From: Chloroflexota bacterium
GTDB taxonomy: Bacteria; Chloroflexota; UBA11872
Length of the DNA: 64,000 bases
Assembly (NCBI GenBank): GCA_022821905.1
Contig: JAJECS010000006.1
Location: forward strand, 1-64,000
Reading direction: 5' to 3'
Shown: piece by piece, positions 1 to 61,403 of the stretch
Position numbering within the stretch: the first letter of the stretch is position 1
Layout: each line of letters opens with the position of its first letter
Made by a program: the position numbers and the translations under genes
Notes under the pieces: generated by a model
The model's input: the letters and a program-made list of their open reading frames with translations, nothing else
What the model was told of the DNA's origin: nothing
Database searches by the model: none

Positions 1-1
1 C

Positions 2-25
2 GCCCCGCGCGTCGGCGCGCGGGGC
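2..25. terminator. GC-rich stem-loop at left edge
   Basis: A perfect 10-bp stem (2-11 with 16-25) with a 4-nt loop, almost entirely G and C. No T-tract follows on either strand, so it is not a classical intrinsic terminator. It probably lies beyond the 3' end of the minus-strand ABC operon or of a gene outside the window. The rest of 1-255 shows no convincing gene. Confidence 0.4.
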
Positions 26-180
26 CAAAACCGCCGCTAATGACGCACCACCGGCCCCAAACGCCGTCAACCCGACGCCCCACGGCACCCTGTCGCCGCT
101 CCGGCGCTCTGGCACCCTGGTTGTTCAGAGCTTCCCTAAGGGGCACAGGACTAGGCGCAACGTCCTTAGATTCCTCGCTG

Positions 181-237
181 GCGCTCGGAATGACGAAGAA
201 GGGGCGCTCGGAATGACAGACAGGGGCGCTCCGAACC
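181..237. repeat. Three 23-bp tandem units
   Basis: Units start at 181, 204 and 227. Each begins with GCGCTCGGAATGAC or a close variant (the third has GCGCTCCGAAC). The preceding segment (about 170-180) reads TTAGATTCCTCGCTG, and the whole resembles a dispersed repeat of the 'attcctcgctgcgctcggaatgac' type. It lies just downstream of the ABC permease stop codon. No coding role is seen. Confidence 0.6.
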
Positions 238-255
238 GACTCGGCCGCGAGCCGG

Positions 256-1293
256 CTAACCGCCCTTGGCGCCGGCCACATCCTTGCGTTGGAACAACCA
301 GAACGCCAGACCGCCGAGGATGACCGTATAGCCCAGCATCACCATCGCGGCGGGCAGAGGGTCGGGCACTGCGCCGATGCCGCCGGCTCCGAACGAGAAA
401 TCCCCCGAGTCCATCCAACCGCTGGCCGCGCGCCCCAGGACAAACGTTGAGATGCCCTCGAACCAGGCGAAGTTGGCCAGGATGCCGACGACGATCTGCT
501 CGATCACGTAGTAGCCGACGCTGATCGCAATGCCCATTCCCGACGACGAGGTCAATACCGACATCAGCACGGCCAACGCCACATACGGCAGGTAGACATA
601 GATGAGCTTGCCGAACGCGATGGCAAGCTCGGACCACTCGCCGGCGCCGACGATCTCACCTTCCAGCGTAAGGGTGGCGATCACGCTGGCGACGCCGACG
701 ATTGCCAGCACCAATGCGCTCAGGCCCACGCTCGCGAGCGCGATCACGAGGGTCTTGGACGCGAGCAACTGCCAGCGGCCGACGCCCCGCACCAGGACGG
801 TGCGCAGCGTCCCCCAGCCGTATTCGGTTCCTGGAACCGACGCCGCCAGAATCATGATGAGTATGACGCCAAAGAAGGCCAGCGAACTGACCAACGCGAA
901 CATCAGGCTGTTCGGGAGAAACATGGCTTGCCGGATGTCGTCGGAGTTCTCGTTTACGGATTCACAGCTCTCGGCAAACTGCTGCAGGTTCCTGGCGATG
1001 TTTTGCTGTTCCTCCCGAGAGAAACGCTCGAAGTCCAGCGGAAGATCGCCGTCCTGCATGTCCGTGAGATCAGCGCAGGTGAACTCAATCTCGACGGTTT
1101 CCCCAGCCGTATCGGTTGCGTCGAACGAGATGCTCGATTGGTTGGCGGGCCCTCCGGTTGCCACGAAGGCATAAGTGCTCCAGAAGATGAGCTGCGAGAT
1201 GGCCACGCCGATGAGCAGCAGGATCCACGGCATCCGGCGACGGTGCAGCTTGAACCACTCCCAGCGGGAGAGCCTGAGGACCTGCCCGATCAT
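256..1293 (-). CDS. ABC-2 type transporter permease
   Basis: Membrane subunit of an ABC-2-type exporter, 345 residues. The N-terminus is short and basic (WEWFKLHRRR), followed by a transmembrane helix at about 24-46. A large, acidic, probably extracytoplasmic loop (about 47-131) contains two cysteines (about 75 and 109) that could form a disulfide. Five further hydrophobic segments lie between about 132 and 335. This one-helix, large-loop, five-helix plan is typical of ABC-2 permeases (known of the family). The ATG overlaps the stop of the upstream ATPase gene by 4 bp (ATGA), so the two are co-transcribed and probably translationally coupled. The substrate cannot be read from sequence; export of a drug, lipid or peptide is possible. 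Confidence 0.85.
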   Translation of the reverse strand: MIGQVLRLSRWEWFKLHRRRMPWILLLIGVAISQLIFWSTYAFVATGGPANQSSISFDATDTAGETVEIEFTCADLTDMQDGDLPLDFERFSREEQQNIARNLQQFAESCESVNENSDDIRQAMFLPNSLMFALVSSLAFFGVILIMILAASVPGTEYGWGTLRTVLVRGVGRWQLLASKTLVIALASVGLSALVLAIVGVASVIATLTLEGEIVGAGEWSELAIAFGKLIYVYLPYVALAVLMSVLTSSSGMGIAISVGYYVIEQIVVGILANFAWFEGISTFVLGRAASGWMDSGDFSFGAGGIGAVPDPLPAAMVMLGYTVILGGLAFWLFQRKDVAGAKGG

Positions 1294-2204
1294 TCGAGCT
1301 CACCCGCGACGTCGCCGGTGACTTCGAGGAAGTACTGCTCCAGCGACTGTTGCAGGGGCGTGATCTCCGCGACGTAGACGCCGGACTTGCCGAGCGCGGC
1401 GGTCAGCTCCGAGGTGCGGTCGTGCGGCGCGGTCACGATGAGCGCCTCGCCCTCGATCCGCACCTCGTCCACCCACTCCAGCGCCGAGAGAATTTCGACG
1501 GCTTCCGCGTCGTCGGAGGTTCGCAGTCGGATCTGTTCCTGCTGGTGGAGTAAGTCGCCGACGGCGCCCTGGGCGATCACCTTGCCCTTGGACAGGATGG
1601 CGACGCTGTCGCAGATCTGCTCCACCTCGTTGAGCAGGTGGCTGGAGAGCAGCACGGTGCGATCGGCGCTCCCCAGGTTGCGAATCAACTCGCGCACTTC
1701 GGCCATTCCCGCCGGGTCCATGCCGTTGGTCGGCTCGTCCAGGATCAGCAGCTCGGGGTTGCCGAGCAGCGTGTAGGCCAAGCCCAGCCGCTGCTTCATC
1801 CCCAGCGAGTAAGTCTGGAATCGGTCGCCGGCCCGGTCGGCCAGGCCGACCTGTTCGAGCAGATCGTCCAGCTCCTTGGGCGAGCCGCGGCCCGAGATGC
1901 CCTGAAAATAGGCCAGGTTGCGGCGTCCCGAGAGATAGGGATAGAAGTACGGCTGCTCGACGATGGCGCCCACGCGATGCAGCGCCTCAGCGTGGCTCGT
2001 CTGGGAGCCCAGCAGGCTGAAGCTGCCCGAGGTCGGGCGCACCAGACCCAGCAGCATGCCGATGGTGGTGGTCTTGCCCGATCCGTTGGGGCCCAGGAGA
2101 CCGAAGATGCGCCCGCGGGGCACTTCGAGCGTGAGCTGGTCGACAGCGAGGATGTGACCGTAACGCTTCGTCAAGGCCTCGGTCTGGATGACGAAGTCGT
2201 TCAA
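1290..2204 (-). CDS. ABC transporter ATP-binding protein
   Basis: Nucleotide-binding subunit partnering the permease immediately downstream, 304 residues. All motifs are intact: Walker A GPNGSGKTT at 38-46, Q-loop in VEQPYF near 83, signature SLGMKQR at 133-139, Walker B LLILDEPTNG at 152-161, and the switch histidine in LLSSHLLNE near 190. The C-terminal 80 residues resemble the regulatory extension of CcmA/BcrA-like exporter ATPases. The start is TTG at 2204, chosen because AGGA lies 6 nt upstream and the KRYG motif follows at the usual distance. A long, structured leader precedes it (see 2385-2475). Confidence 0.92.
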   Translation of the reverse strand: MNDFVIQTEALTKRYGHILAVDQLTLEVPRGRIFGLLGPNGSGKTTTIGMLLGLVRPTSGSFSLLGSQTSHAEALHRVGAIVEQPYFYPYLSGRRNLAYFQGISGRGSPKELDDLLEQVGLADRAGDRFQTYSLGMKQRLGLAYTLLGNPELLILDEPTNGMDPAGMAEVRELIRNLGSADRTVLLSSHLLNEVEQICDSVAILSKGKVIAQGAVGDLLHQQEQIRLRTSDDAEAVEILSALEWVDEVRIEGEALIVTAPHDRTSELTAALGKSGVYVAEITPLQQSLEQYFLEVTGDVAGELE

Positions 2205-2384
2205 GGCAGTCCTGTTCGCTTCAACGTGATTGCCCGCAAAGACGGCACATCATACGAGGTCACGGCAAGCATTCTTGAGCAGGGGACGGCATCGGAGCCG
2301 GTCGCGCGTGATTCCAGGATGGCGCAGATACGTTGCTGCACGCTACCCCTTCCAATCGACAGCCCCAGCGAGCGCGCCGGGGTG

Positions 2385-2475
2385 ATTTCCCGTACCACCA
2401 GGCTCGACCCCAGCAGCCGCTGAGGCTGCCGGGAAATACACAACGCGCCTTGCGGCGCGCTATTAGCCTGGTGGT
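2385..2475 (-). ncRNA. Candidate pseudoknotted leader RNA
   Basis: In 91 nt there are four perfect pairings: 2394-2404 with 2465-2475 (11 bp), 2385-2392 with 2430-2437 (8 bp), 2413-2418 with 2424-2429 (6 bp, 5-nt loop) and 2444-2449 with 2454-2459 (6 bp, 4-nt loop). The first two interleave, so the fold is a pseudoknot with one hairpin in each connecting loop. On the minus strand the last hairpin is capped by GCAA, a GNRA tetraloop; on the plus strand it would be TTGC. The element lies about 180 nt upstream of the ABC ATPase start and begins where an extended -10 at 2482-2490 would place the transcript start. It matches no riboswitch I can name. Alternatives are a mobile inverted-repeat element or a plus-strand ribozyme-like fold. 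Confidence 0.5.
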
Positions 2476-2481
2476 GGAGGG

Positions 2482-2490
2482 ATGGTATCA
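2482..2490 (-). promoter_or_regulatory. Extended -10 of ABC operon
   Basis: The minus strand reads TGATACCAT, matching TGnTAnnnT. The +1 would fall at about 2475, the first base of the 11-bp stem of the leader element. No good -35 is visible, as is usual for extended -10 promoters. The same motif type lies before both peptide-binding-protein genes and the VanW gene. Confidence 0.4.
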
Positions 2491-2594
2491 CGCCCGGGAC
2501 CGGAGCGACCCACCACCTTGGGATTCATGCTGGGCCGATGGGCGACCTATGCGTGCGCCGCATATGAGCGGGTCACAGGCATCCGGTTAGCCGC

Positions 2595-2990
2595 CTACGC
2601 GGGCTCCTCGCGCCGGACGGTGCCTATGCGGTCGATCGCGCGGTCGAACGAGGCCACCACCCCGACGCCCGTCCGCTCCGCGCTGGCCACCAGATAGGCG
2701 TCGGCGTAGTCGAGACCGTGCACCTCGTAGACCTCCACCGCGCGTAGGAGCAGCGGGCCGTCGACAACGCGGATGGCGCGAAAGGCAAGGATCGACCGCA
2801 GCGCCTCGGCCACCTGGTGTCGAGGCGCCTCGTAGTACGACTCCAACACATACGCGACCTCGGCGAGGATGAGGTCGGGGAGGAGCAACGTGTCGGCGTG
2901 TTGGAGATGTCGAGTTGCCCTTCTCGCCTGTTCTGGGGGATCGCCGGTGAGATGCCGGACGAGAACGTTCGTGTCGAGAAAGGCCGTCAT
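2595..2990 (-). CDS. PIN-domain toxin, VapC-like
   Basis: Putative ribonuclease toxin of a type II toxin-antitoxin pair, 131 residues, the usual length for VapC. Acidic PIN residues are present: D6 in FLDTNVLVR, E44, D94/D97 in the GLDYADAYL segment, and D116 in ASFDRAID. These coordinate metal in the family. The ATG at 2990 overlaps the antitoxin stop by 4 bp, the normal antitoxin-first arrangement. The target RNA cannot be inferred; VapC enzymes typically cut tRNA or rRNA. Confidence 0.87.
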   Translation of the reverse strand: MTAFLDTNVLVRHLTGDPPEQARRATRHLQHADTLLLPDLILAEVAYVLESYYEAPRHQVAEALRSILAFRAIRVVDGPLLLRAVEVYEVHGLDYADAYLVASAERTGVGVVASFDRAIDRIGTVRREEPA

Positions 2991-3235
2991 CGCCGCGAGG
3001 CGGCTCTAGCCTTCCGGGTTTCGCGCACGACGTCGTCCCACGGTGTGCCGCGCTTGGTGGCCGGTACGGTCACTGAACCGGCGAGTTCAATGAGGTCGGC
3101 GCTGCGCGCCAGGATCGCCCGTTGCCCCTCGACCCTGAAGACGACCTGGTCGCCTTCCTGAATGGTGAGCGCCTCACGCACCGCGCGAGGAATCGTGACC
3201 TGGCCTTTTGACGTGACTCGCGCCGCGACGTCCAT
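2987..3235 (-). CDS. AbrB/MazE-family antitoxin
   Basis: Swapped-hairpin DNA-binding antitoxin of the AbrB/SpoVT type, about 82 residues. The N-terminus (residues 5-45) has the family core TSKGQVTIPRAVREAL followed by GDQVVF; the basic C-terminal tail (WDDVVRETRKARAASRR) is likely the toxin-binding arm. I start it at the ATG at 3235 because AAGGAG lies 7 nt upstream and the AbrB fold begins immediately; a longer frame to 3328 adds unrelated sequence. It overlaps the PIN toxin by 4 bp. Autoregulation is likely through the inverted repeat just upstream. Confidence 0.85.
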   Translation of the reverse strand: MDVAARVTSKGQVTIPRAVREALTIQEGDQVVFRVEGQRAILARSADLIELAGSVTVPATKRGTPWDDVVRETRKARAASRR

Positions 3236-3243
3236 ATGGCGCT

Positions 3244-3284
3244 CCTTACTATTGATCGACAGTAAGGATACGCCAACGGTCAAG
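3244..3284 (-). promoter_or_regulatory. Operator/promoter of the vapBC-like pair
   Basis: Inverted repeat CCTTACT (3244-3250) and AGTAAGG (3261-3267) around a 10-bp centre, directly upstream of the antitoxin Shine-Dalgarno. A -10-like TATCCT on the minus strand (3270-3265) overlaps the outer arm, and TTGACC occurs at 3284-3279 but at poor spacing. The layout fits a toxin-antitoxin complex repressing its own promoter. Confidence 0.4.
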
Positions 3285-3355
3285 GTCTGCGAATTCCCGG
3301 GCTGCACGCAGCCCCGGGCCACCGGCACTGGTGCGCCGGGCTCAGCCCGCGTCGG

Positions 3356-4279
3356 CTACAGCGTGAAGGTGTCCGGGCCGGTGCGGCGCCAGTCGGGACG
3401 GTAGCCCTCCTTGGCGTTGTATCCCATGGACGGGAACACCTGCTGGGGCGTGCGCCAGGGCCATGCCTGGCCGCCGATGACGCGGTAGTCGTCGTCCCTG
3501 CCGCACAGCCAATAGAACATGTGCGCCACGAAGATGGCCGTGCGGTGGCCGCCGTAGTAGGCGGTGTGGAAGTCGAAGTCGTCCTCCACAATCCAATCGC
3601 GCTGGGGCGGCGCCGAGCGCCAGTAGTTGTACTTCAGCATCCGCCGCCGGCCGGTCGAGGTGGAGACGCCGCGCCGGTGCAGGATGCTCTGGTGATGGAT
3701 GCCGATCGTCCCGGCGGGACCTTCGAGCAGGACGCCCTGTTCCTCGAAGTCGCGCTTGTTGGGTCCAATGTGGGTGCCCGGAAACACCTCCGTGGGGCCC
3801 ATCCCGGCCGGGGTGTCCTGCGGAAAGTAGAAGACTTCCAGGAAGTTGAGCTCGGGACCGAAGATGTGGTCGGCGTCCTGATGCCACCCCTGCGCCGGCA
3901 TGGGGCACTCGGCGAGATGGTGGCTGGTAATCACGGGCAGGCCGACGTTGGCGCCGAGCAGGGATCGCAGCGCGCCCGCGAGCTGCGGATTCAGCAGCAC
4001 GTGCTCGATGAACCACTCCTCGAGCAGGATGGCGCTCGGCTCGTGCGAGCTGCGAATGCGCTCCAAGTCGTCCAGCGTCAGCCCCGGCGGCATCATGACC
4101 GGGTTGAGCGGGGCTTTGCCGTCCAGATAGTCACAGCACTTCTGGTTGATCTCGTCCGGCACGACGCCTTCGAGCAAGAGGTGCCCGTCGCGACAGAATT
4201 CGAGCACCTGGCTGTCGGTGAGCGTGGGGGCGCAGTCGAACGATCGGGCTTCGCTGTCGTACTCGACGCTGGATGGCAT
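3356..4279 (-). CDS. Phytanoyl-CoA dioxygenase (PhyH) family protein
   Basis: Fe(II)/2-oxoglutarate-dependent oxygenase, 307 residues. The HxD iron-binding pair is H133 and D135 (GWHQDADH), the distal histidine is probably H201 (ILHRRG), and arginines at 211-213 could hold the 2-oxoglutarate carboxylate. The DG-x-LLLEGVV segment near residue 31 is the usual PhyH N-terminal signature. Substrate is unknown: bacterial PhyH enzymes hydroxylate lipids, ectoine, amino acids or natural products. One of three divergent PhyH genes here (others at 27.4 and 58.1 kb). It is downstream of tRNA-Lys on the same strand, not in a clear operon. Confidence 0.85.
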   Translation of the reverse strand: MPSSVEYDSEARSFDCAPTLTDSQVLEFCRDGHLLLEGVVPDEINQKCCDYLDGKAPLNPVMMPPGLTLDDLERIRSSHEPSAILLEEWFIEHVLLNPQLAGALRSLLGANVGLPVITSHHLAECPMPAQGWHQDADHIFGPELNFLEVFYFPQDTPAGMGPTEVFPGTHIGPNKRDFEEQGVLLEGPAGTIGIHHQSILHRRGVSTSTGRRRMLKYNYWRSAPPQRDWIVEDDFDFHTAYYGGHRTAIFVAHMFYWLCGRDDDYRVIGGQAWPWRTPQQVFPSMGYNAKEGYRPDWRRTGPDTFTL

Positions 4280-4302
4280 GGGCGGCGGTATCCGAGGTTG
4301 CC

Positions 4303-4327
4303 GAGGCCGCCTATTCTATGCGGCCTC
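4303..4327. other. Stem-loop between tRNA-Lys and phyH
   Basis: GAGGCCGC (4303-4310) pairs perfectly with GCGGCCTC (4320-4327) around a 9-nt loop. It lies downstream of tRNA-Lys and about 25 nt upstream of the PhyH start on the same strand, so it could end the tRNA transcript or sit in the PhyH leader. There is no T-tract. Confidence 0.35.
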
Positions 4328-4420
4328 GCCCGTGAAGGCAGTGCGGGGCGTCAACGCTCACGGAGCACCTGCACGGGCGCCGGGCGCACGGCACCAAAGA
4401 TGTCAGACGCCCAGACCTGG

Positions 4421-4493
4421 TACCCCCGGTAGGAATCGAACCTACAACCTTCGGATTAAGAGTCCGCTGCTCTGCCAATTGAGCTACGGAGGC
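4421..4493 (-). tRNA. tRNA-Lys (anticodon CTT)
   Basis: A 73-nt cloverleaf read on the minus strand. The acceptor GCCTCCG pairs with CGGGGGT (with G-U pairs), the D-arm is GCTC/GAGC, the anticodon loop is CTCTTAA with anticodon CTT, and the T-arm is GTAGG/CCTAC with TTCGATT. The top anticodon-stem pair is a G-A mismatch. CCA is not encoded. A promoter fits 3 nt upstream of the mature 5' end. Confidence 0.95.
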
Positions 4494-4502
4494 CGGTTGC
4501 CC

Positions 4503-4532
4503 AGTCTACTGGCGCGGTGCTGGCGGCCTCAA
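4503..4532 (-). promoter_or_regulatory. Promoter of tRNA-Lys
   Basis: On the minus strand TTGAGG (4532-4527) is separated by 18 bp from TAGACT (4508-4503). Transcription would start near 4496, three bases before the tRNA. Confidence 0.5.
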
Positions 4533-4572
4533 TGATGGGGCGCTGCCTGCACCATGAATTAAGCTTGACGGC

Positions 4573-5184
4573 ATGAGCAGCGACGCTCCGCCAGAGCCCC
4601 CGCAGCCGACGCCGGAAGGGCGGCGCCTGCGGCTCCCATCCCTGTCGCGAAGCGCCGCCGTGATCGCCCTGGCGCTGGCCGTCGGTGGCGCGGCGCTGGG
4701 TCTGTCAATTGCGAACCGTCTGGCGGATGACGATCGCGGGACGGTGGCATACCTGAGCAAGGTCGAGGCGGGGCGCTGGAGCGAGCGATTCGGGCCCGCA
4801 CCGGGCTATAAGCCCGGATTCGTCCGCCCGCCGAGCCGATTTGGCCGCGGCTCGTTCGGCAAGGACAGCTGGGCCCGCAAGCCTGACGGCAAGCACGGCG
4901 CACGCTCACCGGCCCGCACCGATTCCGCCGCCGGCATGGTGATCGCCATCGGCGAGGTCACGGGCGTGTCACACGGCACGATCAGCATGTTCACCATTCT
5001 CGGCAACGACGTTGACATTGCCCTGCGGGAGGCCGATCAGGCTGAGGGCATTGCCCTTGGTGGATGGGCGGTCGTCATGGCGGAACGGACCGGCGACGGA
5101 CTGGCGGCGCGCTGGGTGCGCCCGATGCCGGCGCCGGACGATTTCCCCGACCGCGCGCGCCTGCGGCCCGCGGTCGCGAGCTAG
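4573..5184 (+). CDS. Membrane-anchored protein, DUF5666-like
   Basis: 203 residues with no confident function. The N-terminus is Pro-rich, then one transmembrane helix at about 28-47 (AAVIALALAVGGAALGL), a basic and glycine-rich linker (about 65-115), and a C-terminal beta-type domain (about 118-190: GEVTGVSHGTISMFT..., ending ARWVRPM). That domain resembles the small OB-like DUF5666 repeats of extracytoplasmic proteins; the resemblance is by eye. Topology suggests an exported C-terminus. The stop is 12 bp before the next gene, so the two are probably co-transcribed. Confidence 0.6.
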   Translation: MSSDAPPEPPQPTPEGRRLRLPSLSRSAAVIALALAVGGAALGLSIANRLADDDRGTVAYLSKVEAGRWSERFGPAPGYKPGFVRPPSRFGRGSFGKDSWARKPDGKHGARSPARTDSAAGMVIAIGEVTGVSHGTISMFTILGNDVDIALREADQAEGIALGGWAVVMAERTGDGLAARWVRPMPAPDDFPDRARLRPAVAS

Positions 5185-5196
5185 TAGCGCCCGCGA

Positions 5197-5829
5197 ATGG
5201 CGATCCTGCGACACATTGCCGACGTTCCGCTCTATGCGGCGATCGGCGTCGGGCCCCTGGTGGCCGGTCGCACGGTGATCGACGGATTTATCGGGGTCCA
5301 GGGCGAACCGTGGCTCGGGCGGACCTCGCTCACCATCGAGTGGCTGGCGTTCGTGGTGCTCGGCTACTTCTTCACGCGAACGCTGGTTGGCCTATCGCTG
5401 GACTATGAGACGTTTTGGCGGGTGCCGGGCCGGATGAGCGAGTTTGCCGCGCTGCTGTCCGCGGAGAGCTCCGACGGGCCGCTGCATGCCCACGTGGAGC
5501 GGTCGGGCGGTGACGTGTCGGCGGCCCTGCACGCGAAGGTGCTGAGTCGGGCCGGCATTGGTGGATCGTCGCTCGGTGGGCTGCACGCGCTGTACATCGC
5601 CTTTCGAGCGGGCTTGCTCGGCGCCGTCGTCGCGCTCATGTGCCTGGTCGTCGAGCTATTGCGCCGCGCAGTGAGCGGGGACGCTGAAATCCTGCTCATC
5701 GGGGTTCTTGCGGCCGTCGCGGCGGCGGTGGTGCTCGTCGCGTCGCTGGGAAGCCGGATCGTTGGCCGCGGGGTCGCGTATTACGTCGCCCGCAAGATCC
5801 GGAGACTGGCAGCGGACGCCTCGGGCTGA
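5197..5829 (+). CDS. Hypothetical multi-pass membrane protein
   Basis: 210 residues, family not recognised. Hydrophobic segments lie at about 8-28, 45-66, 133-153 and 163-190, suggesting four transmembrane helices with a central soluble loop (about 70-130) carrying charged residues. The N-terminus (MAILRHIADVPLYAAIG) could be a re-entrant or amphipathic helix. It begins 12 bp after the DUF5666-like gene; the two may form a membrane pair. Nothing in the sequence shows a catalytic motif. Confidence 0.6.
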   Translation: MAILRHIADVPLYAAIGVGPLVAGRTVIDGFIGVQGEPWLGRTSLTIEWLAFVVLGYFFTRTLVGLSLDYETFWRVPGRMSEFAALLSAESSDGPLHAHVERSGGDVSAALHAKVLSRAGIGGSSLGGLHALYIAFRAGLLGAVVALMCLVVELLRRAVSGDAEILLIGVLAAVAAAVVLVASLGSRIVGRGVAYYVARKIRRLAADASG

Positions 5830-5878
5830 TTCACGGAGCGCTCGGAACGAAGCGATTCCGGACGCAGGCTCGGTCGGT

Positions 5879-6643
5879 CTAGGCGATCGTCGGCAAGTTG
5901 AGAAACTCTGCCTCGCAGTCGCGCTGCTCGGCGATGAGGTCGGCGAGGGCACGCACCCCGAATATCTCGGTGGCATAGTGCCCGGCGGCGATGAAGTGGA
6001 TGCCTAGCTCGCGCGCGAGCATCTCCGCCGGTTCGGCCATGTCGCCCGTGATCAAGACGTCCGCGCCAAGCGCCTGCGCCTCCTGAATGAAGGACGCGCC
6101 GCCGCCGCTGCACACCGCCACGCGCTGAATCGAGGCCGGCCCGTGCATGAACGTCGCGTGCGGTCGACCAATGGCGGCCTCCACGCGTTCGACCAGCGCC
6201 GCGGGAGTCAGTGGATGAGCCGCGCGGCCGATCTTGCCGATGGATCGGCCACCGCTGAGCGCGAACGGCGTGGGCTCCGGCTCGAGCCCGAGCGCGCCCA
6301 CGATTTGCGCGTTGTTGCCCAGGCTGTCGTGCGCGTCCAACGCTAGGTGGTAGGCGGCGAGGCTGATATCGGCGTCGAACAGCGCGCGCAGACGCTCTCG
6401 CATGACCCGATTGACCACGCGGCTGTCACGGTCCCAGAAGAGCCCGTGGTGCACGACGACCAGCTGCGCCCCGACTCGCGCGGCTTGCCCAAACAGCGCC
6501 AGACTGGAGCTGACGGCGGTGACCACCCGCTCGACGCGCTCGCTGCCGACCACTTGCAGGCCCATGGGCCCATAGTCCGGAAACGCAGCCACGTCGAGCG
6601 TGGCGTCCAGAAACGCGATCAGGTCGTCGCGGCGCTCCGACAC
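5879..6643 (-). CDS. Nif3-like dinuclear metal centre protein
   Basis: Member of the Nif3/YbgI (DUF34) family, 254 residues, the normal size of the two-lobe form without an insert. Metal-binding residues are visible: HH at 65-66 (VVVHHGLFWD), H and D in the AYHLALDAHDSLGNN segment near 95-102, and H in AAGHYATEIFG near 219. Members form hexamers with two metal ions; the reaction is still uncertain, with GTP cyclohydrolase-like or metal-related roles proposed. The start is GTG at 6643, 7 bp after the stop of the DUF5069 gene; a longer frame reads back through that gene and is rejected. Confidence 0.87.
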   Translation of the reverse strand: MSERRDDLIAFLDATLDVAAFPDYGPMGLQVVGSERVERVVTAVSSSLALFGQAARVGAQLVVVHHGLFWDRDSRVVNRVMRERLRALFDADISLAAYHLALDAHDSLGNNAQIVGALGLEPEPTPFALSGGRSIGKIGRAAHPLTPAALVERVEAAIGRPHATFMHGPASIQRVAVCSGGGASFIQEAQALGADVLITGDMAEPAEMLARELGIHFIAAGHYATEIFGVRALADLIAEQRDCEAEFLNLPTIA

Positions 6644-13892: not shown

Positions 13893-14834
13893 CTAGGTCG
13901 TCGAGGCTCGGCGCCAGGGGAACACCCGGCGCCAGATGCGCGGGATGTCGCGCTGCTCCCACGAAGCGACCAGGCAAGCCGCGTTGAATATCGACGAGTA
14001 CGTCCCAATGGCGAAGCCGAGGGAAAGCGCCAGGACAAAGTCGCGAATCGTCGGCCCGCCCAGGAGCAGCAGGGCGAGCAGCACCAGCAACGCGGTGAAC
14101 GAGGTATTGAGCGATCGCGTCAGGCTCTGGTTGGCGCTGTGGTTGATGATGTCGGCGATGCCGGGTCGCTCGTCGTCGTCGAGATGCACGTAGTCACGGC
14201 TCGTCTCGCGGATGCGGTCGAAGACGACGATGGAGTCGTTGACCGAAAACCCGATCACCGTGAGCAGGGCGGTCACGAACAGCGCGTCGATCTGCACATT
14301 GAGCGCGTGGCCCAGGATCGCGAACACGCCAATGACGAACAGCGCGTCATGCAGCAGCGCCACGATTGCCGCCACGCCATAGCGGACTGAATGCTGCATG
14401 CCGCGAAATGCCCACGTGACGTAGAGCAGAATTAGCCCCGAGGCCACGGCCACCGCGATGATGGCGGCGCGGGTGAGCTCTTCCCCCACGACCGGGCCGA
14501 TGGCTGAGAACCCAAGCTCCTCGACCGGCCCGGTGGCGTCGCCCAGGCCGGTGAGCAGGTCGTCCTTTTCGTCGACGTCGATGGCGCGCACGCGGAGCAG
14601 GGCGTCGCTCTCGCCCGCCATCTGGACCACGGCTTCGGGGAAGCCCGCGCCCTGCGCGGCCGACGTGACAGCCTCTTGCGTCGTGTCCGCCGCGACGCGC
14701 ACCTGCAGCAGCGTGCCGCCGGTGAAGTCGATGCCGGGTTTCAGGCCGCCGGTCAGCAGCGCCGCGATGCCCGGTGCGAGCAGCACGGTGGACACCAGGT
14801 ACCACCAGCCGCGGCGGCCGACGATGTCGAACAT
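13893..14834 (-). CDS. secF: Protein translocase subunit SecF
   Basis: Sec accessory membrane protein, 313 residues, six transmembrane helices with a periplasmic domain after the first. The family signature GIDFTGGTLLQVRV lies at about 33-46, and the membrane half has GFSVNDSIVVFDRIRE, the motif involved in proton-driven pulling of secreted proteins. It starts at ATG 14834, sharing one base with the secD stop (TGATG), so secD-secF are translationally coupled. The terminal basic tail (RIWRRVFPWRR) is cytoplasmic. Confidence 0.95.
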   Translation of the reverse strand: MFDIVGRRGWWYLVSTVLLAPGIAALLTGGLKPGIDFTGGTLLQVRVAADTTQEAVTSAAQGAGFPEAVVQMAGESDALLRVRAIDVDEKDDLLTGLGDATGPVEELGFSAIGPVVGEELTRAAIIAVAVASGLILLYVTWAFRGMQHSVRYGVAAIVALLHDALFVIGVFAILGHALNVQIDALFVTALLTVIGFSVNDSIVVFDRIRETSRDYVHLDDDERPGIADIINHSANQSLTRSLNTSFTALLVLLALLLLGGPTIRDFVLALSLGFAIGTYSSIFNAACLVASWEQRDIPRIWRRVFPWRRASTT

Positions 14835-16189
14835 CAGGCCGCGCCTTCCTCGGGCGTGGACCGCGCGCCAAACCAGCGCGGCTGGTCAACGCCCGGGACG
14901 AGCACCGCCAGCCGCAGCAGCGTGCGGCTGATGGTGATGGCCGAAAACATGCTCACCGCCACGCCGATCGCCAGCGTCAGCGCGAATCCCCGCACGCCGC
15001 CGCTGCCGAAGCCGAAGAGCACCGCGCAGATGAGCAGCGTGGAAACGTTCGAGTCCCGGATGGAGGGCCAGGCGCGGTTGAATCCCGCTTCGATGGCCCG
15101 TCGCACCGCGCGACCGCGGCGCACCTCTTCTCGCGTGCGCTCGAAGATCAGGATGTTCGCGTCAACGGCCACGCCGAGCGACAGGATCACGCCCGCCACA
15201 CCCGCCAGGGTGAGGGTGACCGGCACGAGCTTGAAGATGGCGAAGACGAGCATCACGTAGGCCACGAGCGCCAGCGCCGCCACGACGCCCGCGGCCCGGT
15301 AGTAGGCCACCATGAACGCCAGCACGAGCACGGCGCCCACGATGCCGGCGCGCACCGAGAGCGCCAGCGATTCCTCGCCCAGCGTCGGACGCACGGTCAG
15401 GTTCTGCACCACCTTGAGCGGCACCGGAAGGGCGCCGTATTGCAGCTGGATGGCCACCCGGCGCGCCTCGTCCGGCGTGAACGTGCCGCGGATGACGCCC
15501 TCGTCCCGGATCGGCGCTTCGATAACGGCTGAGTTGATGACGATGTCGTCCACCGTGATGGTGAGCCATTGGCCCAGGTGCGTGCTGGTGTGCCTCTCGA
15601 AGTGCTCGCCGGAGGAGGGCTTGAGCTCGAACGCGATCATGGACGCGCCGAGCTGATCGAACTCGACGCGCGCCGACTGGAGGTCCGCCCCGCGCAGCAC
15701 GACGTCTTCCGGATCGGCCATGAAGACCTCGTCGTCCGGGTAGGGCCGCGAACCGGTGTCGACGATCAGGAGCTCTCCGGTTTCGCGGAAGAGCGCGATC
15801 GCGTCGTCGAGGGGATCCGCGCACTCCTCGGCCGCCGGATCGCAGTCCGGGTCCGGACCGCCAAGGCCGGGAAGCTCCACGATCAGTCGGGTGTCGCCCT
15901 CGATCTGGATGACTGGCTCGGCGACGCCGAGCGCGTTGACGCGGTTCTCGATGATCTGCCGCACGGCCTCCATGGCATCCGCGTCAACCTCCTGGTCGGG
16001 CGCGGGGTCCGCCTCGAATCGCACGTGCAATCCGCCCTGGAGATCCAGTCCCTGCCGAAACTCCAGATCGGAAAAATCGCGCGTGCCGACCTGCACCGGG
16101 AAGCCGGGAGAGTTCGGAACCACGATGTAGAGCGCCAGCGCGAAGACGACCGTGATGAGCGCCAATATCGAGAGGTGACGGCGGCGCAC
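14834..16189 (-). CDS. secD: Protein translocase subunit SecD
   Basis: Partner of SecF in the SecDF complex, which uses the proton gradient to complete export through SecYEG. 451 residues: one N-terminal helix (about 7-25), the periplasmic P1 domain with GLDLQGGLHVRFE, a variable head region, and five C-terminal helices including LGVAVDANILIFERTREE. The start is GTG at 16189. The DPAAEECADPLDDA segment near 125-140 is an acidic insert. Co-transcribed with secF. Confidence 0.95.
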   Translation of the reverse strand: MRRRHLSILALITVVFALALYIVVPNSPGFPVQVGTRDFSDLEFRQGLDLQGGLHVRFEADPAPDQEVDADAMEAVRQIIENRVNALGVAEPVIQIEGDTRLIVELPGLGGPDPDCDPAAEECADPLDDAIALFRETGELLIVDTGSRPYPDDEVFMADPEDVVLRGADLQSARVEFDQLGASMIAFELKPSSGEHFERHTSTHLGQWLTITVDDIVINSAVIEAPIRDEGVIRGTFTPDEARRVAIQLQYGALPVPLKVVQNLTVRPTLGEESLALSVRAGIVGAVLVLAFMVAYYRAAGVVAALALVAYVMLVFAIFKLVPVTLTLAGVAGVILSLGVAVDANILIFERTREEVRRGRAVRRAIEAGFNRAWPSIRDSNVSTLLICAVLFGFGSGGVRGFALTLAIGVAVSMFSAITISRTLLRLAVLVPGVDQPRWFGARSTPEEGAA

Positions 16190-60161: not shown

Positions 60162-61403
60162 ATGCCGCTTGGCTTGCTGAAATACGGACTGCGACCGCGC
60201 CGCCCGCCTGACCGGTTTCTCCCGCCCCGCCCGGAGCTCAAGCGCGCCTACGACACCGTCATCATCGGCGGCGGCGGCCACGGACTCGCCGCGGCGTACT
60301 ACCTGGCGACCGAGCACGGCATCACCGACGTCGCGGTGCTCGACAAGGGGTATCTCGGCGGTGGCAACACGGGGCGCAACACCGCCATCGTGCGGGCCAA
60401 CTACCTCACCGAGGAGGGTGTTCAGTTCTACGCCGAATCGCTGGATCTCTGGCGCGGGCTGAGCAATGAGCTCGACTTCAACCTTCAATACACCGAGCGC
60501 GGTCACCTCACGCTGGCCCACGCCGACTCAGCCATTCGCACCATGCGCTGGCGCGCCGAGGTCAACAAGCACTTCGGCGTTGACTCCGAGCTGATCTTCC
60601 CCGACGAAATCGCCAGGCTGGCGCCGGGCCTCGATCTTTCGTCCGACGTGCGGCATCCCGTGCTGGCGGCGCTGTACCACCCGCCCGGCGCCACCGCCCG
60701 GCACGATGCGGTCGTGTGGGCCTATGCCGCACGCGCCGCGGAGCGCGGCGTTGAGTTGCACTCCGACACCGAGGTCACCGGAATTCAGGTGGAGAGCGGT
60801 CGCGTCACCGGCGTCGAAACCTCGCGCGGACCCATTCAGTGCAACCGCGTGCTCCAGGCGGTGGCCGGGCAAAGCTCTCTCGTCGCGGCCATGGCCGGCT
60901 TTCGCCTGCCGATCCATACCGTGCCGCTGCAGGCCTGCGTGTCGCTGCCGCTCAAGCCCTGGCTCGATCCGATCGTGGTGTCGGGCAGCCTGCACGTCTA
61001 TATCTGGCAGTCGGCGCGGGGTGAAGTCGTCATCGGCGGCGCCACCGATCCATACGCGCTCTACGCCAACCGGTCGACGCTGGAGTTTGCCGAGGGCACC
61101 TTGTTGCCGGTGCTGGAGCTATTCCCATTTCTCGCCAACGTCAAAATGCTGCGCCAATGGGCCGGCATGTGCGACATGACGCCCGATTTCAGCCCGGTGA
61201 TGGGCGTCACCCCGGTCGAGAATCTCTACATCGACGCGGGCTGGGGCACCTGGGGCTTCAAGGCCACGCCGGTCTGCGGCAAGCGGATGGCGGAGCTCAT
61301 CGCCACCGGGCGCACGCCCGACCTCTTGGAGCCGTTTCGGCTCAGCCGCTTCGCCGAGTTCGAGCAGGTCGGCGAAAAGGGCGCGGCCTCGGTGGGCCAC
61401 TAG
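60162..61403 (+). CDS. soxB: Sarcosine oxidase subunit beta family, FAD-dependent
   Basis: 413 residues. N-terminal FAD-binding GGGGHG (36-41) after YDTVIIG and D/AxxDKGYLGGGNTGRNTAIVRANYL, then the substrate domain with GGATDPYALYANRS and GMCDMTPDFSPVMG. The beta subunit holds the FAD and demethylates sarcosine in heterotetrameric sarcosine oxidase; other secondary or tertiary amines are possible. First gene of a soxBDA operon; the next ATG is 8 bp on. Confidence 0.92.
   Translation: MPLGLLKYGLRPRRPPDRFLPPRPELKRAYDTVIIGGGGHGLAAAYYLATEHGITDVAVLDKGYLGGGNTGRNTAIVRANYLTEEGVQFYAESLDLWRGLSNELDFNLQYTERGHLTLAHADSAIRTMRWRAEVNKHFGVDSELIFPDEIARLAPGLDLSSDVRHPVLAALYHPPGATARHDAVVWAYAARAAERGVELHSDTEVTGIQVESGRVTGVETSRGPIQCNRVLQAVAGQSSLVAAMAGFRLPIHTVPLQACVSLPLKPWLDPIVVSGSLHVYIWQSARGEVVIGGATDPYALYANRSTLEFAEGTLLPVLELFPFLANVKMLRQWAGMCDMTPDFSPVMGVTPVENLYIDAGWGTWGFKATPVCGKRMAELIATGRTPDLLEPFRLSRFAEFEQVGEKGAASVGH

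Follow-up and report, generated by a model that had tools for sequence, protein, structure and literature searches.

The window, i.e. the whole 64,000-nucleotide stretch of DNA that was analyzed, carries on its minus strand a structured element that is located upstream of an ABC transporter gene. Comparison of this element with its relatives points to an uncatalogued family of leader RNAs that has strong comparative support and has so far been found in only one family of the Chloroflexota. The copies compared establish the structure of the RNA, the strand it is read from, its position and its distribution. We propose with moderate confidence that it represents a new family of cis-acting 5' leaders whose fold controls the downstream message, most likely by setting ribosome access via a long-range helix termed A-A'.

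Structure of the leader RNA in the window

As the initial annotation had recorded, 31 perfect base pairs in four stems of 11, 8, 6 and 6 bp are found at 2385-2475. The two longest, P1 (2475-2465 with 2404-2394, 11 bp) and S2 (2437-2430 with 2392-2385, 8 bp), are interleaved. The two 6-bp stems are a hairpin with a GCAA loop and a GCAGCC/GGCTGC hairpin, the latter being one of two alternatives on comparison across copies. Conserved pairing joins GGCAGCCUCAG to CUGGGGCUGUC at 2368-2358, beyond the element as originally delimited. The full RNA spans 2475-2358 of the minus strand (roughly 118 nt), is longer than the element first delimited and has two long-range helices beyond its four stems, namely A-A' and B-B'. 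Read from 2475 downward, the minus strand holds P1, the P2 hairpin, S2, A, B, P1', a single A, S2', B', A', a Shine-Dalgarno-like stretch and a GTG start (Table 1). The strand order of the whole RNA is P1, S2, A, B, P1', S2', B', A', or 1-2-3-4-1'-2'-4'-3', and in the window copy the A strand overlaps the end of S2 by one G.

Table 1. Coordinates of the leader, of neighboring features in the window and of IS1595-family elements at other loci
Feature	Position	Strand	Basis or remark
-10-like box TACCAT	2482-2487	-	TGA before it (extended -10); 6 nt before first base of P1
Whole structured leader, P1 first base to A' last base	2358-2475	-	Comparison of copies
P1 5' strand, 11 nt	2465-2475	-	100/100 pairs standard, ten copies
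P2 hairpin, GCAA loop	2441-2462	-	Absent or different in other copies
S2 5' strand, 8 nt	2430-2437	-	80/80 pairs standard, ten copies
A strand GGCAGCCUCAG	2420-2430	-	110/110 pairs standard (ten copies); 96.7% of cells paired (19 copies)
B strand GCUGGGG	2408-2414	-	68/69 pairs standard (ten copies); 86.8% of cells paired (19 copies)
P1' strand	2394-2404	-	Ten-copy pairing
S2' strand	2385-2392	-	Starts 1 nt past P1'
B' strand CCCCGGC	2376-2382	-	Pairing in 10- and 19-copy sets
A' strand CUGGGGCUGUC	2358-2368	-	Pairing in 10- and 19-copy sets
Shine-Dalgarno-like GGAAGGGG	2346-2353	-	Sequence
46-codon GTG frame directly after leader	2201-2341	-	Stop overlaps ABC start
TATGAT box near ABC start	2249-2254	-	Also present in genomes without leader
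ABC transporter ATPase (PF00005)	1290-2204	-	ABC-2 membrane protein gene comes next
IS1595-family elements	L142:9306-12207 (G005), L143:1453-5085 (G001), L151:122-2241 (G013)		23-41-nt inverted repeats, several cargo genes

The likelihood of such a layout arising by chance was evaluated on shuffled sequence. A pair of interleaved Watson-Crick stems no shorter than 11 and 8 bp, with no more than 1 nt between P1' and S2', occurred once in the 64-kb window and in none of 200 dinucleotide shuffles. When the limits were relaxed to stems of 10 and 8 bp and a spacing of up to 4 nt, 14 of 200 shuffles contained such a layout, and allowing one G.U per stem gave three interleaved layouts in the window compared to a mean of 1.45 per shuffle (40 shuffles). 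The interleaving is thus striking only at full stem length, while looser settings are not rare. Two further interleaved candidates on the plus strand, at 14804-14886 and 60619-60693, were seen at the loose setting and are at about the shuffle level. The folding energy of the minus strand was -63.2 kcal/mol, which corresponds to a z of -7.4 relative to shuffles; the plus strand also beat its shuffles, less strongly (z -5.3).

Homologues and distribution

A DNA search of 101 genomes (E up to 0.1) returned matches in 37. These included a single close copy, located at the same ABC gene in the congeneric genome G003, and one diverged match in G005 that consists of two copies 500 bp apart, each directly before a small membrane-protein gene. 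The matches beyond G000, G003 and G005 were short, and the six that were folded looked unrelated. A model of four copies (R1), in which P1, P2, P3 and a 3' hairpin made up the structure with P3 and the 3' hairpin treated as fixed, found one further copy, in G001; its matches in G002, G040 and G060 at E 0.01-0.04 were judged unrelated. The R1 fold was superseded, since its P3 and 3' hairpin would form in place of A-A' and B-B'. A small basic ORF located beside two early leaders had six matches in 31 genomes, one of which led to the leader in G013. The neighboring membrane protein, matched in 7 of 111 genomes, yielded the G008 copy and a variant in G031, with no leader recognized at its matches in G002:C13, G020 and G023. 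A pattern search based on A and A' brought many chance matches and three copies, two of them in G010 and one in G002.

Model R2, made of A-A' and B-B' from ten copies and with one bracket of its structure line one column off, found further copies in the class. Model R3 holds the same two helices from 19 copies (alignment A7, which leaves out G005b and includes G012a, at a contig end, as well as three copies, G007a, G007c and G011a, that do not pass the P1+S2 test described below). It was used to search 400 phylum genomes. Matches were obtained in 15 of the 19 genomes of the bacterial family, and the remaining 22 genomes of the class had none; the sole match outside the family, in G083, was judged to be chance (P1+S2 score 10.8). 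Clear P1+S2 copies are present in 14 of the 19 family genomes, G017 failing the test, and copies may be missed in such counts since the model searches score only the best first-look candidates, 12 to 118 per genome. The G031 variant (L155, about 1370-1500, plus strand) precedes a related membrane-protein gene and was missed by R3. Its P1 is 14 bp long, its S2 is in two parts (8 and 7 bp) and a 14-bp pairing covers the Shine-Dalgarno sequence, with the strand order unchanged.

Several other lists were gone through. A pattern scan of genome contigs (31 stretches) contained as true copies only L109 and L123, which are those of G003 and G001 themselves; in an earlier 20-genome match list true copies were confined to G000, G001, G003 and G005, and in a 9-genome list to G002, G008, G010 and G013. 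In the P1+S2 test, four viral-contig stretches scored 0-11.4 and ten scored 14.8-15.6, compared to 18.2 for the weakest clear copy. A further search of viral contigs gave no copies and no encoded relative among them, and DNA searches of plasmids and phages gave no copies.

A mobile repeat such as a REP or MITE, which the initial annotation had named as one outcome that would undo its proposal, was rejected: near-identical copies scattered in one genome were not found, G000 contains one full-length leader match, and a second, weak R2 match in that genome (C24, E 0.26) has neither P1 nor S2. The paired copies within G005 and within G010 differ in sequence. The statement that no known family is recognizable also held. 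No Rfam family reached threshold at the window leader, none was found at the leader positions of the other copies at permissive thresholds, and searching both strands of 2200-2600 at E up to 10 gave only one chance miRNA match. No known riboswitch aptamer family is therefore present at the leader positions as judged by Rfam, a result that says nothing about a new class. A literature search of open-licence papers returned no description of this RNA or of leaders on IS1595 cargo.

Covariation and strand

Pairing was evaluated in ten copies with helix registers set by hand and a single bulged B base omitted in each of G005b and G001. In these, 358 of 359 pairs were standard, and two-sided changes, i.e. 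the compensatory changes in related genomes that the initial annotation had called for, were found at 10/10 positions of P1, 8/8 of S2, 6/7 of B and 3/11 of A. Swapping the arms between copies lowered the standard fraction to 0.59 in P1, 0.56 in S2 and 0.57 in B. Swapped A arms were still 0.89 standard; the A sequence is conserved and varies little. The pairs included 29 G.U and no A.C and the RNA is therefore the minus strand of the window, as had been suggested at the outset for a structured leader.

Across 19 copies, 92.5% of the cells of A-A' and B-B' were paired. Controls with one strand slid reached at most 52.2%, and shuffles averaged 86.9% with none of 500 reaching 92.5%. No shuffle matched the covariation score or the number of cells with two-sided change either. 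Two of the five measures were unremarkable, namely the number of pair types, as high in 430 of 500 shuffles, and the number of pairs changed on both sides, as high in 15 of 500.

As the pairing of P1 and S2 is absent from R2 and R3, the search for these helices next to R2 and R3 matches constitutes a fair test of them. Nineteen of 27 places passed, with very different sequences, and 8 failed. Considering only the 17 places found solely by R2 or R3, 9 had a clear P1+S2 and 8 failed. The 19 clear copies scored 18.2-24.2 (the 19th 23.0), compared to a null of swapped upstream arms that had a median of 8.0, its 99% point at 17.2 and a maximum of 19.6, and that includes swaps among close relatives.

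Five copies matched R3 on the opposite strand too, more weakly wherever both were scored (e.g. 39.1 vs 74.2 bits). The sense strand outfolded the antisense strand in 17 of 17 copies, whose fold energies ranged from -55.6 to -80.2 kcal/mol. Several bases between A and B are conserved as well. This is not the case for the loop of the P2 hairpin, and the significance earlier attached to its GNRA type was not borne out: other copies in the genus differ there and those in G008, G010 and G013 have only 0-2 nt.

The leader at the ABC transporter locus

The initial annotation had considered the leader a possible sensor for the substrate of the exporter. This tie was dropped upon comparison within the genus. 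The same ABC gene is present in all six genus genomes, four of which are without the leader upstream (it is found there only in G000 and G003), and elsewhere the leader precedes unrelated genes. A promoter-like box near the ABC start is conserved in six of six genomes, as TATGAT in five and TATTAT in one, and the gene thus seems to have a promoter of its own. The leader in the window, standing alone upstream of the ABC exporter, may add a second, RNA-controlled transcript.

It is a serious possibility, although on the whole we hold it to be less than probable, that the window leader is left over from a cargo unit since lost and has no effect on the exporter. The ABC gene's own conserved box and the four genomes in which the leader is missing agree with this, as does the short frame downstream of the window leader, which is not conserved and ends at 27 codons in G003 compared to 46 in the window. 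Conservation of the leader itself argues against a relic. Between G000 and G003, five 25-nt blocks over 2352-2476 are identical at 23-25 of 25 positions, while the flanking intergenic blocks of the same length are identical at only 6-21 of 25. Some function is favored because the leader is more conserved than its flanks. Within P1 the two genomes differ by one compensatory change (U-A to C-G) and by one change from A-U to G-U on the minus strand that keeps the pair as a wobble; on the plus strand the latter would give A.C. No match to an IS1595-type transposase was found in the 64-kb window. Beside the leader, at 2595-3235 of the minus strand, a PIN-domain protein and an adjoining MazE/AbrB-type protein are encoded, likely as a toxin-antitoxin pair.

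Promoter-like box, start codon and ribosome-binding site

Each of the 19 clear copies carries a TANNNT box 5-7 nt upstream of P1 (17 counted by script, G013 and G007:C50 read by eye). The same motif at this spacing precedes 0.3% of window positions, and a sigma-70 consensus scan of 1-6000 returned no promoter. The spacing of the box implies that transcription would start at P1's first base or immediately adjacent to it, and placing the transcript start there, as was done initially, is probably right. In each of the 17 copies examined, the chosen start codon was 115-146 nt from the beginning of P1 and 13-39 nt after A', a uniformity that is partly built in as start codons were picked by a simple Shine-Dalgarno score only 8-95 nt after A'. 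The leader consequently lies between predicted promoter and predicted start codon on the same strand.

No covariation with the Shine-Dalgarno region was observed for P1, S2, A, B or B' (mean rank 0.48-0.68 relative to swapped pairs, n=17). In three copies the 3' hairpin seemed by eye to sequester this region through its 5' arm (CCCC/GGGG-like pairing), an idea that failed against swapped pairs in 17 copies. As no leader segment covaries with the region, direct sequestration is unsupported as a general rule; in the G031 variant it is A' that directly covers the Shine-Dalgarno sequence. A terminator-like site was found in 1-6000 only at 892-877, at a considerable distance from the leader. In copies of G013, G008 and G010 (L148/L151, L153, L169 and L186) the first five bases of P1 are repeated right after A' as GTCAC or GCTAC, matching their own P1, and this repeat could pair with P1' instead.

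The main rival to control of translation is protection of the 5' end, both of which we infer. The message would be paired from its first nucleotide on and 5'-end-dependent decay blocked, by a static knot that senses nothing. The position of P1 behind the box in every clear copy, the stable folds of the 17 copies, the lack of a covarying anti-Shine-Dalgarno segment and the remoteness of the terminator-like site would all suit a stabilizer of this kind. A plain hairpin would suffice for it, however, and the set of four conserved long-range helices, in which S2 abuts A, exceeds that need, as do the several conserved bases between A and B. We consider the stabilizer unlikely as an account of the family.

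Downstream genes and IS1595 elements

The genes that follow the leaders are mostly mutually unrelated and have no assigned function. An N-terminal hydrophobic segment within the first 60 residues was predicted for the ORF after 12 of 18 clear copies compared to 10 of 46 window ORFs (one-sided Fisher P 0.001; the background ORFs are of at least 150 aa while leader ORFs are often shorter). Taking all places with an ORF, 16 of 24 precede one with a hydrophobic segment. One leader product is a PF14373 superinfection-immunity-like protein and another has a holin-like match below its cut-off. The membrane protein in G013 has relatives in 21 Streptomyces phage records that are short and in some cases annotated as membrane proteins, the best being MH171095.1 44970-45290 (54 residues aligned at 42.6% identity). 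A SAM riboswitch (71.1 bits) is located at L221:2492-2597, roughly 1 kb downstream of the leader in G014.

A protein encoded in the leader's own unit, either the divergent basic protein of 45-48 aa or the membrane protein, might bind the RNA as a repressor or activator, and the small basic ORF does lie divergently beside three leaders (G005b, G001a and G013). The variety of downstream proteins speaks against such a binding site and makes it quite improbable, as do the three of the six basic-ORF matches in the 31 genomes that have no recognized leader adjoining (G005:C2, G008:C12 and G011:C45) and the fact that G000 has no basic-ORF match at E up to 0.01.

Four copies at three loci (G005a, G005b, G001a and G013) lie inside elements of 2.1-3.6 kb that have inverted repeats and an IS1595 transposase, and such a transposase is also found near the copies in G008, G007a, G007b and G018 and near the G031 variant. 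These placements would agree with a transposon-borne RNA that serves the mobility of IS1595 instead of its cargo, or with a free small RNA. We regard either as very unlikely, given that both leader copies in G005 are inside the element with each preceding a cargo gene, and that most of the remaining loci have no IS1595 transposase within a flank of roughly 1.5 kb. The G005 element also contains a 72-base tmRNA-like piece at L011:694-765 of the plus strand, whose score of 34.4 bits (E 1.2e-10) falls short of the gathering score of 47. It aligns to the two ends of the model with most of the middle missing, ARAGORN calls no gene there, and a TACCAT box is found just upstream.

An HDV-like self-cleaving ribozyme on the plus strand, a reading raised initially on account of a stem order that we take to be the same as in HDV, has a negligible probability, since no match to RF00094 or another HDV-like model of Rfam was obtained at E up to 10, the homologues and the excess of G.U over A.C favor the minus strand, A-A' and B-B' have no place in the HDV fold, and inspection by eye made neither a catalytic cytosine nor P1.1 evident.

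Comparison with known leaders and pseudoknots

In having a conserved 5' UTR fold, a promoter-like box and many unrelated downstream genes, and in keeping its structure while the sequence changes, the leader resembles orphan riboswitch candidates and other cis-regulatory 5' leaders. Unlike these it has no recognized expression platform or Rfam match and is so far confined to one bacterial family; its main helices cross and its structure begins at about +1. The preQ1 and SAM-II riboswitches are H-type pseudoknots with shorter stems. The leader is like them a compact pseudoknot in a bacterial leader and differs in that Rfam, at permissive thresholds, gives no match at its positions. In common with IS1595-family cargo transposons, several copies are surrounded by inverted repeats and a transposase (NF033547). 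The conserved RNA leader on cargo genes sets them apart from known IS1595 cargo transposons, for which none was found in the open-licence literature searched.

P1, S2 and A-A' follow the 1-2-3-1'-2'-3' order of ABCABC pseudoknots ("pseudotrefoil", subclass 1C), for which Table 3 of a survey of 1939 RNA structures gives 51 sequences (PMC3390330). In the leader these helices measure 8-16 bp, with a fourth helix located inside one of them.

Proposed mode of action

Control of the message by a cis-acting leader, the reading favored above, would proceed as follows. Once transcription had started at P1, the first 118 or so nucleotides could fold into P1, S2, A-A' and B-B' with an optional P2 hairpin. 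P1, S2 and A-A' are in ABCABC order in all ten copies with B-B' inside A-A', and the only overlap among the registered helices is of 0-2 nt at the junction of S2 and A. The four helices could form together since their bases are separate apart from these. Nested folding up to the start codon picked A-A' and B-B' in five of seven copies (G000, G005a, G005b, G013 and G008). In G003 the outcome was P1 plus local hairpins, and in G001 it was local hairpins. Local pairing of A with B and of B' with A' is available as an alternative and offers a possible switch. Opening or closing of A-A' beside the ribosome-binding site would then set translation in answer to some signal. Action in cis and at the level of translation is what we infer from this arrangement, and the leader probably controls how messages are used.

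The leaders may, more speculatively, constitute a new regulatory class, although we think this unlikely in its full form. The RNA would be a one-piece knot beginning at +1 and made of three to four helices, each of about one turn or more, that has been spread in part by transposons. It would act as a common switch for the accessory exported and membrane proteins of the family, the superinfection-immunity-like protein being among its targets, and would respond to a signal that RNA is not known to sense, e.g. phage attack or the state of the envelope.

The modeling and comparison of copies have thus led from one raw-sequence observation to an RNA family that has strong comparative support and is not catalogued. 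As its main helices cross, it would be a good test case for three-dimensional folding of RNA. The cargo genes of IS1595 transposons are shown to carry a common RNA leader. In uncultured Chloroflexota, the leader marks otherwise unannotated and often exported proteins as one group that is likely to be regulated together.
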